Source: Synergistota bacterium
GTDB lineage: Bacteria; Synergistota; GBS-1
DNA: 64,000 nt
Direction: 5' to 3'
Assembly: GCA_025060595.1 (NCBI GenBank)
Contig: JANXBX010000003.1
Location: 138,746 to 202,745 of the forward strand
In this document: piece after piece, positions 56,013 to 62,257 of the stretch
How the letters are laid out: each line of letters begins with the position of its first letter
How positions within the stretch are numbered: the stretch's first letter is position 1
Notes under the pieces: model-generated
The model's database searches: none
Told to the model about the DNA's origin: nothing
Seen by the model: only the letters and a program-made list of their open reading frames with translations
Made by a program: the position numbers and the translations under genes

Positions 56013-56786
56013 CTATTCAAAATAAACGGTAACTGAACCAAGCTCGTAAAAGGCTACGGTAAAAACATCTCCTTTACTAGCATCTAAAGCAGCTGTGACA
56101 GCTCCAGAAAGAATTATCTCTCCCGCTTCCAATGCAACACCAAATTCAGCAAGTTTATTCGCTAACCACGCTACAGCAGCTGCAGGATGCCCCCACACAG
56201 CAGCACCAGCACCCGTACTCATAACCCTTCCATTCTTCTCCAAAATCATACCTATAAGCCTTAAATCTAAATTTTTAACAGGAACAGCTTTGCTTCCTAA
56301 GATAAACCTTGCACTTGAAGCGTTATCTGCTATCGTATCCTCAAGCTTTATCTTCCAATCACGAATTCGACTATCCACTATCTCTATAGCAGGTATAACG
56401 AACTCTGTTGCCTTAAGAACATCAGTCATCGTCACCCCTGGTCCTTTCAAGGTATCTCCCAATACGAAAGCGATCTCTCCCTCCACTTTAGGTTGAATAA
56501 GATCTTCCCTTTTACATGGCTGACCTTGTAAAATAAGCATATCATCCAAAAGATGACCATAATCAGGCTCTTTAACGCCAAGCAAATCTTGCATAGCTTT
56601 ACTTGTAAGACCTATTTTCTTACCAATTACCTTCCTACCAAGTCCAATCTTGATTTTTACTCCCTCCAATTGAACCTTGTAAGCATCATTCACGCTTAAT
56701 CCTTGATAGGTTGATGTAAGAGGATCAATTGGGCTTCTCTTTCTCTCCGCTTCAATCAACTTTAAGGCTATCTCCCTATGATCCAT
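56013..56786 (-). CDS. mhpD: 2-keto-4-pentenoate hydratase / oxoacid hydratase-decarboxylase family
   Basis: 257 residues of the MhpD/DmpE/DmpH family: VIGKKIGLTSKAMQDLLGVKEPDYGHLLDDMLI, KVEGEIAFVLGDTLKGPGVT (metal-binding E-x-E type), AIEIVDSRIRDWKIKLEDTIADNASSARFILG. Expected to hydrate 2-hydroxy-dienoate to 4-hydroxy-2-oxoacid, the substrate of MhpE. Overlaps the upstream gene by 11 nt. Decarboxylase members share the fold, so the exact step is uncertain. Confidence 0.88.
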   Translation of the reverse strand: MDHREIALKLIEAERKRSPIDPLTSTYQGLSVNDAYKVQLEGVKIKIGLGRKVIGKKIGLTSKAMQDLLGVKEPDYGHLLDDMLILQGQPCKREDLIQPKVEGEIAFVLGDTLKGPGVTMTDVLKATEFVIPAIEIVDSRIRDWKIKLEDTIADNASSARFILGSKAVPVKNLDLRLIGMILEKNGRVMSTGAGAAVWGHPAAAVAWLANKLAEFGVALEAGEIILSGAVTAALDASKGDVFTVAFYELGSVTVYFE

Positions 56787-57681
56787 GAACCTCAGCTCCT
56801 TTCTTCGTTTTAGCCTGCCAATGGCTTCTTATGGCCTTGGCAATCTCCTGAGCCATAGTAAAATCATCAACATCTCTTAATAAATATTTTTCAAGCACTT
56901 CACAAGCAATTTTAACTTCTTCATGAGGCCCAGGCAAAGCTATCAATCGCGCTAGCCCCACACGTCCAACAGCTATGCGTACTCCCTCCTTGTGATGACG
57001 CCTATAGTCTGGTTCAAATTTTAATATCCAAGGGGTATGCGCCTTAGGATCAAGTTGCAATATAGCCTCTATATTGCAATCCTTATCTTCTGCTCCAACA
57101 CCACCTGTTATGATTATCAAGCCATATCCTTTTCCCAGAGCTTCATCTAATCTATTTACTACAGAATAAACATCATCCGCTAGAATCCCACCAAATTCCG
57201 CCTTGAATCCTAGATTACTTAAAAAGCCAATTATATAAGGAGAATTTAAATCCTGAATCTTTCCCAAAATTAACTCGGTTCCTGAAGCAAAAACCAACGC
57301 TCTTAAAGAAACCTGCTTCACAACTTCTGAAGCTAGCTCAGCAGCTCTAGAGATGAAATCATCCGCTTCTTCTTCACCTAACGCAATTAGCCCCAATATC
57401 CCTTCCGAATGAACCTTAGCATCAGGTTTCACATATACTCCCTCAATAGAGCCTAAACGCTTTAAAAGATCCTTTTCTTTACCAACAATAGCTTCCGCCT
57501 TTATCTCCCTTCTCAATATATCGAAGGCCACTAAGTTCGGTCTTACATCAACGACCATAATTTCATGAGACTCTAATTCAAGAGCTAAAGCTGCCTCTTT
57601 AGACAAATGCTCCAAATTCACATTAGACAACTCTATGCCTTCAACCCAAAAACTAGTTTTTTCAAGTAAATTCCACTTCAC
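56776..57681 (-). CDS. Molybdopterin-binding (MoCF) domain protein
   Basis: 301 residues. The C-terminal half fits the MoaB/MogA/CinA-type MPT-binding fold: YIIGFLSNLGFKAEFGGILADDVYSVVNRLDEAL, then LIIITGGVGAEDKDCNIEAI, corresponding to the TGG[TV]G...D motif. The N-terminal about 135 residues (ESHEIMVVDVRPNLVAFDILRREI) are not recognised beyond resembling other members of this uncharacterised family. No molybdoenzyme is in the window. Lies between ModD-like and mhpD genes, 9 nt after the former. Confidence 0.65.
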   Translation of the reverse strand: MKWNLLEKTSFWVEGIELSNVNLEHLSKEAALALELESHEIMVVDVRPNLVAFDILRREIKAEAIVGKEKDLLKRLGSIEGVYVKPDAKVHSEGILGLIALGEEEADDFISRAAELASEVVKQVSLRALVFASGTELILGKIQDLNSPYIIGFLSNLGFKAEFGGILADDVYSVVNRLDEALGKGYGLIIITGGVGAEDKDCNIEAILQLDPKAHTPWILKFEPDYRRHHKEGVRIAVGRVGLARLIALPGPHEEVKIACEVLEKYLLRDVDDFTMAQEIAKAIRSHWQAKTKKGAEVHGS

Positions 57682-57690
57682 CTTTTTTTT

Positions 57691-58488
57691 TCAACTCCTT
57701 ATCACATCCAAGCTAAAATCTAAAAGAGGAGCGTCTATAATAGCTCTTCCCACATCCACTATATCAGCACCAGCTTCTATAACATTCTCAATATCATCTG
57801 CTTTTACTCCACCACTAAAGGCAACCTTGACCCTCTCCTTAAAACCTCTTTCAAGAACTATCTTCTTAACACAAACTAAGTCTTTTAGCCTTCCCGTATC
57901 TACCATAAGTACTCCAGCACCTTCCCTTAAAGACTCGATAGCTTCCTCTTCCAGAGACGATACATCACCACGCAACTGAACAACTATCACCCTTCCCTTT
58001 ATTTCCTTTGCTTTTCTTATGGCAGGGGCTAAACCTCCAAACATACGAATATAATTTTTGTCTAAGTAGATAAACGGTTCCTCTAAAACCCTAATACCAG
58101 CACCTCCAATTTTTATAGCCTCTCTAAAATCCTGCCTTACCTCCAAAGGAACTTTCTTCCACGCTCCACAAACCACCCTTATTCTTCCACCCGCTAACTT
58201 AACCATAAGCGCACTTGCCGTAGCTATACCAGAAACTTTACCTATAAGTCCTAGAAGGCGCTCCTCTGCCATGGCTACCTGCCAAGCATCCCCTTTTCCA
58301 CAAAAAACCACATCCCCTCTTTTTATGGATACGCCATCTTCACTAATAAAATCAACATCTAGTCCTATTCTCTTTGCCTCCTCCAAAAGCCTCTTAACCC
58401 CAGCTAATATTCCTTCCTCCCTTGCCTCTATCTTAAAAATATAAAGCTTCCCCTTTAAAGGCTCAAATAATAAATCCCTTATATCCAT
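57691..58488 (-). CDS. NadC/ModD-like (type II phosphoribosyltransferase fold) protein
   Basis: 265 residues. Matches quinolinate phosphoribosyltransferase/ModD in layout: an N-terminal alpha/beta region (DGVSIKRGDVVFCGKGDAW, ERLLGLIGKVSGIATASA) and a barrel ending in VKVAFSGGVKADDIENVIEAGADIVDVGRAIIDAP. The NadC active-site string RKTxPG / GGGxNHR is degenerate (AWKKVPLEVRQDF, IGGAGIRVLEEP), nearer to ModD. First gene after the 58.55 kb promoter. ATG at 58488 has no obvious Shine-Dalgarno. Confidence 0.65.
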   Translation of the reverse strand: MDIRDLLFEPLKGKLYIFKIEAREEGILAGVKRLLEEAKRIGLDVDFISEDGVSIKRGDVVFCGKGDAWQVAMAEERLLGLIGKVSGIATASALMVKLAGGRIRVVCGAWKKVPLEVRQDFREAIKIGGAGIRVLEEPFIYLDKNYIRMFGGLAPAIRKAKEIKGRVIVVQLRGDVSSLEEEAIESLREGAGVLMVDTGRLKDLVCVKKIVLERGFKERVKVAFSGGVKADDIENVIEAGADIVDVGRAIIDAPLLDFSLDVIRS

Positions 58489-58538
58489 ACTAATTTATTC
58501 GTTATTATAAAATGCCTTTCTACATTAACCTCAGAGTT

Positions 58539-58567
58539 ATTATAATTTCTAGCTTTCAAGCTGTCAA
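58539..58567 (-). promoter_or_regulatory. Consensus sigma-70 promoter for the ModD-like/mhp/LarA-like operon
   Basis: TTGACA (58567-58562), 17-nt spacer, TATAAT (58544-58539) on the minus strand: both hexamers perfect. Start near 58532 leaves a leader of about 45 nt. The 144-nt gap 58489-58632 shows no other clear element. The hypothetical gene upstream has no obvious terminator. Confidence 0.82.
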
Positions 58568-58632
58568 GAGACCCAAAACCCCAGTTTAAGAGATATACTT
58601 GAGCTATCAGTTCTTTAAGTAACAAACTCTCC

Positions 58633-59061
58633 TTACAACTTCAAATCTATTATAGCGCTTACACCAACACCCTGAACTCTCCTAAAGCGCTCTAAAGGAT
58701 TTTCAGAATCTATAGGGATTAAGACATCTATTCGCGCTTTACCTTGAAATGAAACCTCAAGTCTGGCAACAGCCTTCGTTTCATCAATCGCCTTAGCGGG
58801 ACCAGAAACCTGTGCAGCTCCTATATAGACACCGCTACCTACGCTAACTATAGGAACCACCTTTGTAGCATAATTATTCTTAACCCCTCGATTTAAGGTT
58901 ACCTCATTAATGAAAGAGTTAAGCGGTTCTGCCATGGTCTTAACAAGCAATCCTCCGCCAACCACACCTATAAGCTCTTTAAGTCCAACCGTATAAGCTA
59001 CTCCCGAGAAAAACAAGCTAAGAACTATTACAAATAACATAATCTTTTTTTTATCGAACAA
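58633..59061 (-). CDS. Hypothetical exported protein
   Basis: 142 residues, not recognised. N-terminal signal-like sequence KKKIMLFVIVLSLFFSGVAYTVG with possible cleavage near residue 24. The mature part is small and beta-rich: LIGVVGGGLLVKTMAEPLNSFINEVTLNRG, VVPIVSVGSGVYIGAAQVSGPAKAIDETKAVARLEV, KARIDVLIPIDSENPLERFRRVQGVGVSAIIDLKL. The last segment resembles a DUF-type lipid- or ligand-binding strand set, but I assign no function. Isolated between the IclR terminator and the ModD-like operon promoter. Confidence 0.55.
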   Translation of the reverse strand: MFDKKKIMLFVIVLSLFFSGVAYTVGLKELIGVVGGGLLVKTMAEPLNSFINEVTLNRGVKNNYATKVVPIVSVGSGVYIGAAQVSGPAKAIDETKAVARLEVSFQGKARIDVLIPIDSENPLERFRRVQGVGVSAIIDLKL

Positions 59062-59107
59062 GAGGACACACCTCCCTTACAAACAAGGACCACATAACTC
59101 AAAAATG

Positions 59108-59145
59108 AAAGATGGAGAAGCTTAAAAAGCTTGCTCTCCATCTTT
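59108..59145 (-). terminator. Rho-independent terminator after the IclR gene
   Basis: AAAGATGGAGA / TCTCCATCTTT 11-bp stem with an inner AAGCTT-type helix, followed on the minus strand by CATTTTTGAG. About 30 nt after the regulator's stop codon. Confidence 0.8.
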
Positions 59146-59174
59146 TAAAAGCAATGATACTTATTAATAAGGCT

Positions 59175-59954
59175 TTAACGATCCTTTTCTCCCCTATACC
59201 CAAGCTCCGCAGATATACCAGCGGCCGCACTTACCACCTTCTCCACAGCCTTTGCAAGCTTCTCCCCCCTTAAGCGGGAGGTAGGACCAGAAATACTCAT
59301 AGCTGCGCAAACCTTACCCGTGTAATCCCTTATAGGTGCAGCAACACACTTAAGCCCTTCCATAAACTCCTCATTATCAAACGCGTACCCTTGTTCTCGC
59401 ACCTTTGCAAGCTCAGCCTCTAAAACCTCTGGATCCGTTATAGTATTTTTAGTGAACCTCTTCAATCCCTTCTCAGCTATTATTCTCTTTCGTTCTTCAG
59501 CTGGCAGAAAAGCCAATAAAACCTTTCCTACACCTGTGCAATGAGCAGGAAGTCTTGCTCCAACGCGTGATGCTATTCTTATAGATTGCTGGCTTTCCCT
59601 CTTATCTATATAAAGAACTTCCCCCTTATCAAGTATCGTTAAATGAACGGTTTCCTCCATCTCCTCTACAAGCTTTTGAATATACGGAGCAGCTACATTT
59701 TTAACCTCTAACCTTAGCGCTACTATGTTACCAAGCTCGAAAAGCTTAAAACCAAGCCTGTATTTACCCGTAAAGGGAGACTGATCAATATAACCAAAAT
59801 CACAAAGAGTGGATATTAAACCATGAGCTGTACTCTTGGGCATCTTCATCTTCTCCGCTATTTCTCCCAGAGCCATCTCTCCAACATCTTTAGCCAATAT
59901 CTCAATTATTTTTAATGCTTTAGCTACCGATTTTATACGATGCTCCTTCTCCAT
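59175..59954 (-). CDS. IclR family transcriptional regulator
   Basis: 259 residues. N-terminal winged helix: SVAKALKIIEILAKDVGEMALGEIAEKMKMPKSTAHGLISTLCDFGYI; C-terminal effector domain with CTGVGKVLLAFLPAEERKRII, AFDNEEFMEGLKCVAAPIRDYTGKVCAAMSISGPTSRL. IclR proteins often control aromatic or carboxylate catabolism. Probable targets are the flanking paaK, mad and mhp-like genes, by position only. Own 74-nt upstream gap contains A+T-rich TATAAT at about 59973 but no convincing -35. Confidence 0.93.
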   Translation of the reverse strand: MEKEHRIKSVAKALKIIEILAKDVGEMALGEIAEKMKMPKSTAHGLISTLCDFGYIDQSPFTGKYRLGFKLFELGNIVALRLEVKNVAAPYIQKLVEEMEETVHLTILDKGEVLYIDKRESQQSIRIASRVGARLPAHCTGVGKVLLAFLPAEERKRIIAEKGLKRFTKNTITDPEVLEAELAKVREQGYAFDNEEFMEGLKCVAAPIRDYTGKVCAAMSISGPTSRLRGEKLAKAVEKVVSAAAGISAELGYRGEKDR

Positions 59955-60028: not shown

Positions 60029-61270
60029 CTATCCGCTAATCAACCTCTTCGCCTTACCAGACGATCTCTCAAGGCTACCTGGAGGAAGTATGACAAGATC
60101 CACTGTAACTCCAAGCTTATCTTTAAGTGTCTTGGAAACGCGCTGAGTAAGCTCATCTACATCCCCCATAAAGCCGTTAGAAAGCTCACACCTTACCTCA
60201 AGTCTCTTTAAGTGCTTCTTTTCACCTACAACAAGCTGATAGTTTAAACTAAGCTCACTAAAGCCTCCTAATATAGACTCTATCTGCTTAGGAAAAACAT
60301 TAACACCACGAATTATAAGCATATCATCTGTTCTACCTTTTACCCTATCCATCTTCAGTCCAGAAAGCCCACATGCACAGCTTTTGTAAAAGAGTCTAGT
60401 TATATCTCTAGTCCTATATCTTATCATAGGTGTGGCCTCTCTATTCAAAGTAGTTATAACAAGCTCTCCTTCCTCTCCCATTGGGATAGGCTTTAAGGTT
60501 TCTGGATCTATAACTTCCATTATAAAATAATCTTCCCTTATGTGAAGACCATCTTTATAAGAACACTCGATAGCCACACCTGGTCCCCATATCTCACTTA
60601 AACCATAGCAATCAAGCGCAACCAAGCCCAATCCCCTTTCTATCTGAACCCTCATCTCCTCGCTCCAAGGCTCACCACCAAATATACCTAAGCGAAGCTT
60701 AAGCTGATCCGGTGAAATACCTTTCTCAGCCAACACCTCAGCAAGATAAAGAGCATAGCTTGGAGTAGAAGTAATAGCAGTTGTTCCAAGATCCATCATA
60801 AGCTCTATTTGTCTTTCCGTATAACCCCCTGAAGCTGGAATTACACAACATCCGATACGCTCAGCTCCATAGTGATAACCAAATGAACCGGTGAAGAGAC
60901 CATAGTTGTAAGATATTTGAAATATATCATCTTTTCTTAAACCAGCCACACGAAGGCACCAGGCCATAAGCTCAGCCCACTTATCAATATCTCCCTGGGT
61001 ATAACTAACAACTGTAGGCTTGCCCGTAGTCCCAGAAGAACAGTGAATTCTAATTACATCAACCACATCAACAGCAGTTACACCCCAAGGGTATCCTTTT
61101 CTAAGATCATCCTTGGTCATAAAGGGAAGATATCTAATATCTTCAAGGCTTGCTATATCCTCCGGTTTAATCCCGGCCTCATCCATCTTCTCACGATACC
61201 AAGGATAACCCAGATAAGCCCTTTTAACACTATCCTTTAAAGCTGCCAATTGATTATTAGCATCGATCAT
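60029..61270 (-). CDS. paaK: Phenylacetate-CoA ligase-type AMP-forming ligase
   Basis: 413 residues, the normal PaaK length. Adenylation motifs: RIHCSSGTTGKPTVVSYTQGDID, GCCVIPASGGYTERQIELM, YGLSEIWGPGVAIEC, TTLNREATPMIRYRTRDITRL, GRTDDMLIIRGVNVFPKQIE. Activates an aryl acetate (phenylacetate or related) to its CoA thioester in the cytoplasm. Anaerobes use such ligases on products of Phe/Tyr oxidation. Its leader carries a Tyr-rich short ORF and a terminator. ATG with GGGAGGG upstream. Confidence 0.93.
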   Translation of the reverse strand: MIDANNQLAALKDSVKRAYLGYPWYREKMDEAGIKPEDIASLEDIRYLPFMTKDDLRKGYPWGVTAVDVVDVIRIHCSSGTTGKPTVVSYTQGDIDKWAELMAWCLRVAGLRKDDIFQISYNYGLFTGSFGYHYGAERIGCCVIPASGGYTERQIELMMDLGTTAITSTPSYALYLAEVLAEKGISPDQLKLRLGIFGGEPWSEEMRVQIERGLGLVALDCYGLSEIWGPGVAIECSYKDGLHIREDYFIMEVIDPETLKPIPMGEEGELVITTLNREATPMIRYRTRDITRLFYKSCACGLSGLKMDRVKGRTDDMLIIRGVNVFPKQIESILGGFSELSLNYQLVVGEKKHLKRLEVRCELSNGFMGDVDELTQRVSKTLKDKLGVTVDLVILPPGSLERSSGKAKRLISG

Positions 61271-61299
61271 CTTTAACCCTCCCGATATATAAAATTAAA

Positions 61300-61332
61300 C
61301 CGGGGGCTCCACCTATTCGATGGAGCCCCCGG
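61300..61332 (-). terminator. Attenuator/terminator hairpin in the paaK leader
   Basis: CCGGGGGCTCCA / TGGAGCCCCCGG, a perfect 12-bp stem with a 9-nt loop, followed on the transcript by TTTAATTTTATATAT. Classical intrinsic terminator. It lies 29 nt before the paaK ATG and downstream of the promoter at 61454-61483, so it must be bypassed for paaK to be expressed. Confidence 0.85.
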
Positions 61333-61350
61333 CTCACTTTAAACCAAAAC

Positions 61351-61379
61351 TTAAGGGCTTCCCCCTAAGGGGGCCTTAA
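61351..61379 (-). promoter_or_regulatory. Second leader hairpin upstream of paaK terminator
   Basis: TTAAGG-CCCCC-TTA-GGGGG-(AAGC)-CCTTAA on the transcript strand, 11 bp with one bulge. The stop codon (TAG) of the Tyr-rich leader ORF lies in its loop and right arm. Its CCCCC arm is also complementary to the GGGGG of the terminator stem, so alternative pairing is possible. Confidence 0.5.
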
Positions 61380-61439
61380 AGCCGGAGACCCTATGAAGCT
61401 ATAATAATAAACATAATAGCACATCTTTAGCTTTCTCAT
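61365..61439 (-). CDS. Candidate Tyr-rich leader peptide upstream of paaK
   Basis: 24-codon ORF (ATG 61439 to TAG 61365) beginning MRKLKM, then CYYVYYYSF: five Tyr in six codons plus a Phe, followed by IGSPALRPP. It starts only about 8 nt after the predicted transcript start and lacks a clear Shine-Dalgarno; a second ATG (codon 6) is possible. Position between promoter and terminator hairpins is that of an attenuation leader. The TAT repeats could also be low-complexity chance. Confidence 0.42.
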   Translation of the reverse strand: MRKLKMCYYVYYYSFIGSPALRPP

Positions 61440-61453
61440 GATATTCTAGGCTA

Positions 61454-61483
61454 ATTATACATCTGCTTAAGAAAAAATGTCAA
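61454..61483 (-). promoter_or_regulatory. Consensus promoter for paaK leader
   Basis: TTGACA (61483-61478), 18-nt spacer, TATAAT (61459-61454) on the minus strand, both hexamers perfect. It begins 16 nt after the madM stop codon. The leader from about 61447 to the paaK ATG is about 177 nt; the region 61271-61498 holds this promoter, the leader ORF and two hairpins. Confidence 0.82.
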
Positions 61484-61498
61484 TAAGCTTAAAACTAT

Positions 61499-62257
61499 TT
61501 AAAAGAATGCTTTAACGATTAAGAAACCAACGGATGGTATCAATAAGCACCCTAAGCCTGTATAGAAAGTGGCAGTCATGGCTCCATAAGGAACAAGCTT
61601 AGGATCGGTAGCTGCTAACCCCCCTGCTACACCACTAGTTGTTCCCATTATACCACCATAAACCATGGCTACGGTCGGATTATTCAATCCTATTTTGGGC
61701 GCTATAAAAGGCGTTAACATCATCGTTAAAACAGCCTTAACAACACCCGTAGCAATAGAAAGAGCTATAACATCAGAGCTTGCCTTCAATGCTGAACCGG
61801 TTACAGGCCCAACTATAAAGGTACAGGCCCCTCCACCTATGGTGGTTATAGAAACCGGGTCTTTAAAGCCAAGCAACACTGCAAATATACACCCTATAGC
61901 GAAGGAGAAAAATACTCCTACAAATAAAGATACAGTTCCGGGTAAACCGGCTTTCTTAAGATTTTCCCATTTAGCTCCATAGGCTGTAGAAATAATAGCG
62001 TAATCTCTAAGCATAGCACCACCAAGTAAAGCCATGCCTGAGAAAATTTTAACATCTGCTATACCGTTTTTTCCTCCAGTGTAAGCGCCACCTATATAAG
62101 CTAAAATTAAACCAAGCGTTATAGCTATGGAAGAGCTCAATCTCTTCTGACCAATCGATGTAGCTATCCTATCAGCTATAAGCATTAAAATAGCCACTAC
62201 TCCGAAAGCCGTAACCAAATTATTCCTAACAAGTACTCCCTCAAGTAAGCTTAACAT
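61499..62257 (-). CDS. madM: Malonate transporter subunit MadM
   Basis: 252 residues, near the family length of about 254, with several membrane helices. Recognised from LVRNNLVTAFGVVAILMLIADRIATSIGQKRLSSSIAITLGLILAYIGGAYTGGKNGIADVKIFSGMALLGGAMLRDYAI and the GGGACTFIVGPVTGSALKASSDV / GGIMGTTSGVAGGLAATDPKLVPYGAMTATFYTGLGC glycine-rich segments. MadL-MadM form a Na+-dependent malonate symporter (Malonomonas). Begins 21 nt after madL. Confidence 0.9.
   Translation of the reverse strand: MLSLLEGVLVRNNLVTAFGVVAILMLIADRIATSIGQKRLSSSIAITLGLILAYIGGAYTGGKNGIADVKIFSGMALLGGAMLRDYAIISTAYGAKWENLKKAGLPGTVSLFVGVFFSFAIGCIFAVLLGFKDPVSITTIGGGACTFIVGPVTGSALKASSDVIALSIATGVVKAVLTMMLTPFIAPKIGLNNPTVAMVYGGIMGTTSGVAGGLAATDPKLVPYGAMTATFYTGLGCLLIPSVGFLIVKAFF

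Follow-up and report, generated by a model that had tools for sequence, protein, structure and literature searches.

A predicted tyrosine- and phenylalanine-sensing leader-peptide attenuator before a phenylacetate-CoA ligase gene, likely one of a modular class in Synergistota

The paaK gene of the Synergistota bacterium analysed here is very probably preceded by a ribosome-mediated attenuator, by which a shortage of charged tyrosine or phenylalanine tRNA would switch the gene on, likely for aryl-acetate salvage. The attenuator appears to be one of a modular class in this phylum. An ORF, RNA elements with mutually exclusive pairings, their conservation, and a match between leader codons and controlled genes were all observed. 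An earlier note on this DNA had suspected a Tyr/Phe leader attenuator on paaK, and the idea is now supported by the conserved ORF, terminator and antiterminator together with the codon-gene match, on comparative grounds and without experiment. The window, that is, the whole stretch of 64,000 nucleotides analysed, has the following features on its minus strand.

61454..61483 (-): sigma-70-type promoter, with the -35 box TTGACA (61483-61478), an 18-nt spacer and the -10 box TATAAT (61459-61454)
61365..61439 (-): leader ORF of 24 codons encoding MRKLKMCYYVYYYSFIGSPALRPP, with ATG at 61439 and the stop codon TAG at 61367-61365 (direct reading)
61401..61418 (-): sensing codons TAT TAT GTT TAT TAT TAT; a Phe codon is next at 61397-61395
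61379..61391 (-): element A, the antiterminator 5′ arm GGGTCTCCGGCTT, which overlaps the end of the leader ORF and pairs with element D
61361..61373 (-): hairpin CCCCC-TTA-GGGGG, whose loop and right arm hold the stop codon of the leader (direct reading)
61323..61335 (-): element D, GAGCCGGGGGCTC, partner of element A and left arm of the terminator
61291..61332 (-): intrinsic terminator, 12 perfect base pairs (61332-61321 with 61311-61300) and the tail TTTAATTTT
61278..61283 (-): Shine-Dalgarno sequence GGGAGG of paaK, directly 3′ of the terminator (direct reading)
60029..61270 (-): paaK, phenylacetate-CoA ligase-like, 413 amino acids, PF00501 and PF14535

In a promoter scan, the TTGACA-N18-TATAAT sequence (61483-61454) matched all 12 consensus positions, and equivalent promoters are present in the homologues of the window's family (f1). 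The terminator stem-loop (61332-61300) is GC-rich with a 9-nt loop, and its T-rich tail ends 20 bases 5′ of the paaK start. Thus, the perfect promoter, the perfect 12-bp terminator with its U-tract and the following paaK are as previously reported. Since the scan placed no promoter-like site in the interval from the terminator to paaK, any transcript arriving from upstream has to pass the terminator. The paaK product, starting from the ATG at 61270, is an AMP-binding ligase with a PaaK-type C-terminal domain. The madM gene ends at 61499 on the same strand, just 5′ of the promoter-leader-terminator-paaK unit. On the 3′ side of paaK, positions 56013-59954 of the window carry genes for an IclR regulator, a 142-residue protein, a QRPTase-like protein, a molybdopterin-binding-domain protein and an FAA hydrolase; the homologous cluster of genome G003 also has acetaldehyde dehydrogenase/aldolase-like ORFs (by reading).

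The leader ORF has the clustered sensing codons of ribosome-mediated attenuators, encoding CYYVYYYSF, and none of 5000 dinucleotide shuffles of the leader contained an ATG-initiated ORF in which six or more of ten residues are aromatic. The 24-codon ORF of the earlier note was thus confirmed by direct reading, while its start was moved from 61437 to the ATG at 61439. No Shine-Dalgarno sequence was found 5′ of this ATG, nor 5′ of the leader ATGs of family f1, whereas leaders outside f1 mostly have sites of the GGAGG type. This absence had been held to weaken the case. The absence is real, but it has an explanation: the distance from the -10 box to the ATG is only 14 nt in the window and 11 nt in each of the four f1 homologues, so that the mRNA is probably nearly leaderless, as inferred from the promoter spacing.

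The leader RNA is far more stable than its shuffles (z -4.05), and the folding analysis proposed for it was informative. When the leader was folded without the right arm of the terminator, a 13-bp helix emerged between GGGUCUCCGGCUU (61391-61379, element A) and GAGCCGGGGGCUC (61335-61323, element D), closing around the inner hairpins; the same helix was found in the window and in four homologues. Since element D is the left arm of the terminator, the A:D antiterminator and the terminator are mutually exclusive. The ORF's last sense codons (...GGG TCT CCG GCT...) run into element A. The A:D helix therefore has both properties of an antiterminator, exclusion of the terminator and a position within reach of a ribosome that is ending leader translation. 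From ribosome dimensions, element A would be partly covered by a ribosome that has reached the stop codon, but would stay mostly accessible when the ribosome stalls on the Tyr codons. The hairpin holding the ORF stop in its loop and right arm is present as described before (61373-61361, minus strand), but the CCCCC:GGGGG pairing once considered as the antiterminator is this stop-codon hairpin itself. It has equivalents in the f1 copies, and GACGCCTAGGCGTC occurs in other families.

Element A contains an invariant AGGGTCTCCGG in all five f1 copies. Among families, the sequences of A and D differ while their complementarity is kept (element A is GGGTCTCCGGCTT in f1, CGCGGGTCCTCTTCA in f2 and GTGGGGCCTCCTGG in f6). 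Compared with dinucleotide shuffles of A, the A:D pairing had a median z of -1.75, with p<=0.05 in 30 of 61 loci; for the window locus alone, p was 0.06 against GC-rich shuffles. Compensatory changes were seen in the terminator pairs in an alignment of 12 leaders, although the near-identical f1 copies show little compensatory change on their own. In one f1 homologue (L040), the ORF ends just 5′ of element A.

Taken together, these elements suggest the following mechanism. Transcription would start just 5′ of the nearly leaderless 24-codon ORF. When charged tRNA-Tyr (and tRNA-Phe) is plentiful, the ribosome would reach the stop codon in the hairpin and cover element A, leaving D free to pair with the right arm of the terminator, and transcription would stop before paaK. 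When charged Tyr- or Phe-tRNA is short, the ribosome would stall on the Tyr codons, the 13-bp A:D helix would form in place of the terminator, and paaK would be transcribed. Leader translation, ribosome stalling, amino-acid-responsive read-through, the direction of control and the role of the enzyme are inferred, there being no RNA, ribosome or reporter data.

Is the leader conserved before other paaK genes? Its conservation in relatives was the test set beforehand by the earlier note, and the test was passed with 61 loci in eight Synergistota families. By DNA search, the leader was located before paaK-like genes in both other genera of the family, and the same genome has it once more, before another paralogue; its layout is kept in all of these family homologues. 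A third PaaK paralogue (42% identity) lacks the leader. The family's leader peptides, MRKLKMCYYVYYYSFIGSPALRPP in the window and MKEIICVYSFVYYYYKE, MKVSMNLCVFRFYFSWKGSPA, MKGSLSGFGFYYYTNRGSPA and MRQHYVVYLFVFYFRCLGSPV elsewhere, vary in residues and keep their aromatic character. When the f1 leaders were made into a covariance model, its weak matches in family f7 proved, on reading, to be diverged homologues before paaK. PaaK genes were then collected by protein search and 94 upstream sequences were read. Of these loci, 61 were retained, in which the leader peptide has a cluster of Phe/Tyr residues and then (V/A)GP or GSP; every one has an intrinsic terminator. About one third of the sequences read have no such leader. 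L106, L111, L128 and L141 were left out as false pattern-based ORF calls, and L080 and L097 as duplicates. In the 56 distinct cores, 225 of 784 in-frame codons are aromatic; the remaining two frames have 75 and 94, and for each of the residues both synonymous codons occur. The roughly 60 leader loci share descent and cannot be counted as that many independent events. In 79 loci of other phyla, no convincing paaK leader was found, and the short aromatic ORFs there look like background. The exact motif GGGTCTCCGGC was also searched for in 61 genomes and was discarded, because a reversed control indicated mostly chance matches outside the family.

The same RNA chassis was found at other amino-acid genes. 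A covariance model (R2) was derived from 12 paaK leaders and made codon-blind by letting it begin 3′ of the sensing codons; it matched in 77 of 185 genomes, in many cases not at paaK. Matches lie before ilvB, ilvN and ilvC with corresponding Ile/Leu/Val codons (the ilvB leader of the window's own genome is MQAYNSSMGFMVIIALVLVIISLRRGSPPGVIGV), before leuA (LLLL), threonine-dehydratase-like/ilvA-like genes (IIII), metQ and metY (MMM), and aspartate kinase (MTMT); representative downstream gene families were confirmed by NCBIfam. Among 30 leaders, limited to R2 matches with a nameable downstream gene, none of 20000 permutations matched codon content to gene class (ilv, leu, met or paaK) as well as the real assignment. 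The leader codons thus agree with the gene product, as is required of an attenuator; in the case of paaK, this agreement depends on the aryl-acid salvage route discussed below. Because the chassis serves ilv, leu and met genes with matching codons, starvation likely switches the controlled gene on.

The ilvB attenuators of this class, in the window's own genome and in relatives, are at G000:C1:5864-5962 (L334; leader VIIALVLVIISL), G001:C10:6071-6184 (L335) and G003:C1:376944-377043 (L336). Aromatic leaders (FWYGYYF, FYFYFWF and similar) also precede putative transporter genes (L320-L322, L326, L327, L330, L357, L360; L339, L341; L345, L346). These encode one sodium/solute symporter and two membrane-protein families without an NCBIfam match; the gene at L360 was not identified. 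The transporters may carry aromatic amino acids or aryl acids.

The distribution of Phe and Tyr codons was overlaid on a tree of 59 PaaK proteins, made by a quick method with SH-aLRT support only and with some long branches. Ten PaaKs from f6, f7, f8 and f11 form a clade whose leaders use Phe alone or nearly so, and another 19, from f4, f6, f7, f8, f10 and f11, form a clade whose leaders contain Tyr. The Phe-only label requires 8 changes on the tree compared with 19.4 in shuffles (0 of 500 as low), and the Tyr label 6 compared with 8.5. The sensing residue largely follows the PaaK gene tree, a pattern expected of functional codons in front of paralogues that serve different amino acids. At least 14 genomes have one Phe-type and one Tyr-type leader. 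The leaders of the window paaK and of its 90%-identical orthologue are Tyr-dominated (five Tyr, one Phe).

What does PaaK do in these bacteria? The enzyme forms aryl-acetyl-CoA at the expense of ATP. Most likely, PaaK would activate 4-hydroxyphenylacetate or phenylacetate, and indolepyruvate-type ferredoxin oxidoreductases would carboxylate the product to an aryl-pyruvate, from which Tyr or Phe would be made. Indolepyruvate oxidoreductase can carboxylate aryl-acetyl-CoA esters, a route by which Methanococcus converts aryl acids to aromatic amino acids (work cited in PMC4162585); synthesis of Phe from phenylacetate has been described for rumen microbes (PMC7356843). IorA homologues were found in every relative searched, 53 of 61 above the curated cut-off. 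Synergistota genomes of group f4-g8 have iorA-iorB-paaK operons and no detectable chorismate synthase; no leader was seen within 330 nt before iorA in these operons. The window's source genome has chorismate synthase, so aryl-acid salvage is not its only route to Tyr and Phe.

It remains possible, if unlikely, that the same attenuator has a catabolic role, in which PaaK degrades aryl-acetates and aromatic supply tunes the gene, perhaps with opposite polarity (cf. TnaC and tryptophanase). The IclR and hydratase/aldolase-type genes that adjoin the window paaK would also fit such a setting, as would the amino-acid-fermenting lifestyle of Synergistota. However, most of the paaK copies read lie outside any evident catabolic cluster, runs of sensing codons mark the sensing of tRNA starvation rather than arrest by a ligand, and the chassis also serves the biosynthetic and uptake genes ilv, leuA, metY and metQ, where starvation must activate. 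Aryl-acetate salvage is preferred over catabolism in view of the ior-PaaK route, the iorA-iorB-paaK operons and the Phe T-box found at clostridial paaK genes (below). The earlier view of paaK as a catabolic gene is therefore probably wrong, since PaaK with indolepyruvate:ferredoxin oxidoreductase makes up a known aromatic biosynthesis route present as an operon in the phylum.

A metabolite-binding riboswitch with an incidental ORF would also be a conserved, structured RNA with a very stable fold and a terminal terminator, but it is highly improbable here: Rfam gave no match at gathering in the window and only sub-threshold matches in relatives, none credible even in an E-value search; what is conserved is the reading frame with its start, stop and sensing codons; the RNA core that is kept amounts to element A, the stop-codon hairpin and the terminator, without a separate aptamer; and the leader codons change with the downstream gene. 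The position of madM, ending just upstream on the same strand, would suit a constitutive intergenic terminator for madLM with a chance ORF and partial read-through into paaK, a reading that can hardly be upheld when madM and the leader are separated by a consensus promoter and there is none between the terminator and paaK, when the unit is conserved where the upstream gene differs, and when the third PaaK paralogue lacks the unit.

The leader-peptide attenuator favoured here resembles those of pheA, pheS, trp, ilv and his in having a short ORF of sensing codons, exclusive antiterminator and terminator structures, and the controlled gene directly 3′. Those systems are known from Proteobacteria, Actinobacteria and a few Firmicutes; here, in contrast, the phylum is different, there is no Rfam sequence kinship, one RNA chassis serves several amino acids, the controlled gene encodes an aryl-acid CoA ligase, and the leader ORF is near-leaderless in the window's family. 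Until 2010, leader-peptide systems were described only from Proteobacteria and Actinobacteria, and Firmicutes were then added (Naville and Gautheret 2010; PMC2965389). T-box leaders (RF00230) likewise respond to uncharged tRNA through a terminator and an antiterminator, but here a translating ribosome would be the sensor, and no T-box sequence, stem I or specifier loop was found by Rfam search in the window or its relatives. In two Clostridiaceae MAGs, a T-box lies directly before paaK (L161, 1372-1651, 108.9 bits; L204, 4563-4825, 117.6 bits), both with an aligned UUC (Phe) specifier. Control of trp genes by TRAP (MtrB) also acts on aromatic amino-acid genes by alternative RNA structures, whereas sensing here is codon-based and no NAG-repeat array was noticed in the window leader. 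As a separate observation, NAG triplets spaced 2-3 nt in chains of 4 to 8, rare in shuffles, lie 5′ of iorA at L234, L235, L237, L238 and L239 (family f2), and TRAP (PF02081) occurs in 22 of 61 relatives, the window's genome being one of them. The ior genes of Synergistota may be under TRAP control.

Stav 2019 (PMC6429828) examined intergenic regions of five genomes, among them that of the synergistete Thermovirga lienii, and reports two Phe/Tyr uORFs near shikimate genes from one of the five; those candidates would be the same kind of element as the window leader. From T. lienii, the main text names the SLH motif alone. The open-licence literature searched gave no account of leader-peptide attenuation either in Synergistota or at paaK, in line with the earlier note, which knew of no described Tyr leader attenuator on a paaK gene, although an earlier listing of part of this class in the Stav 2019 supplement cannot be excluded.

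In Synergistota, there is probably a phylum-wide set of modular attenuators, each consisting of a GP- or GSP-coding antiterminator arm, a stop-codon hairpin and a terminator, in which the sensing codons are exchangeable for branched-chain, Met or aromatic genes and by which duplicated PaaKs are wired separately to Phe or Tyr. This would extend codon-sensing attenuation to a phylum for which no such report was found, with one chassis reused across amino acids, and suggests that much of the amino-acid supply of these little-studied bacteria is under ribosome-sensed attenuation. If the modular reading is true, the leader codons would predict whether a ligase acts on phenylacetate or on 4-hydroxyphenylacetate, and would mark it as an enzyme of biosynthetic salvage. 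It would provide a regulatory argument for a role in amino-acid supply of these AMP-forming aryl-CoA ligases, which are commonly taken to be catabolic, and the Phe/Tyr split of the leaders would yield testable substrate predictions for many unassigned PaaK paralogues.
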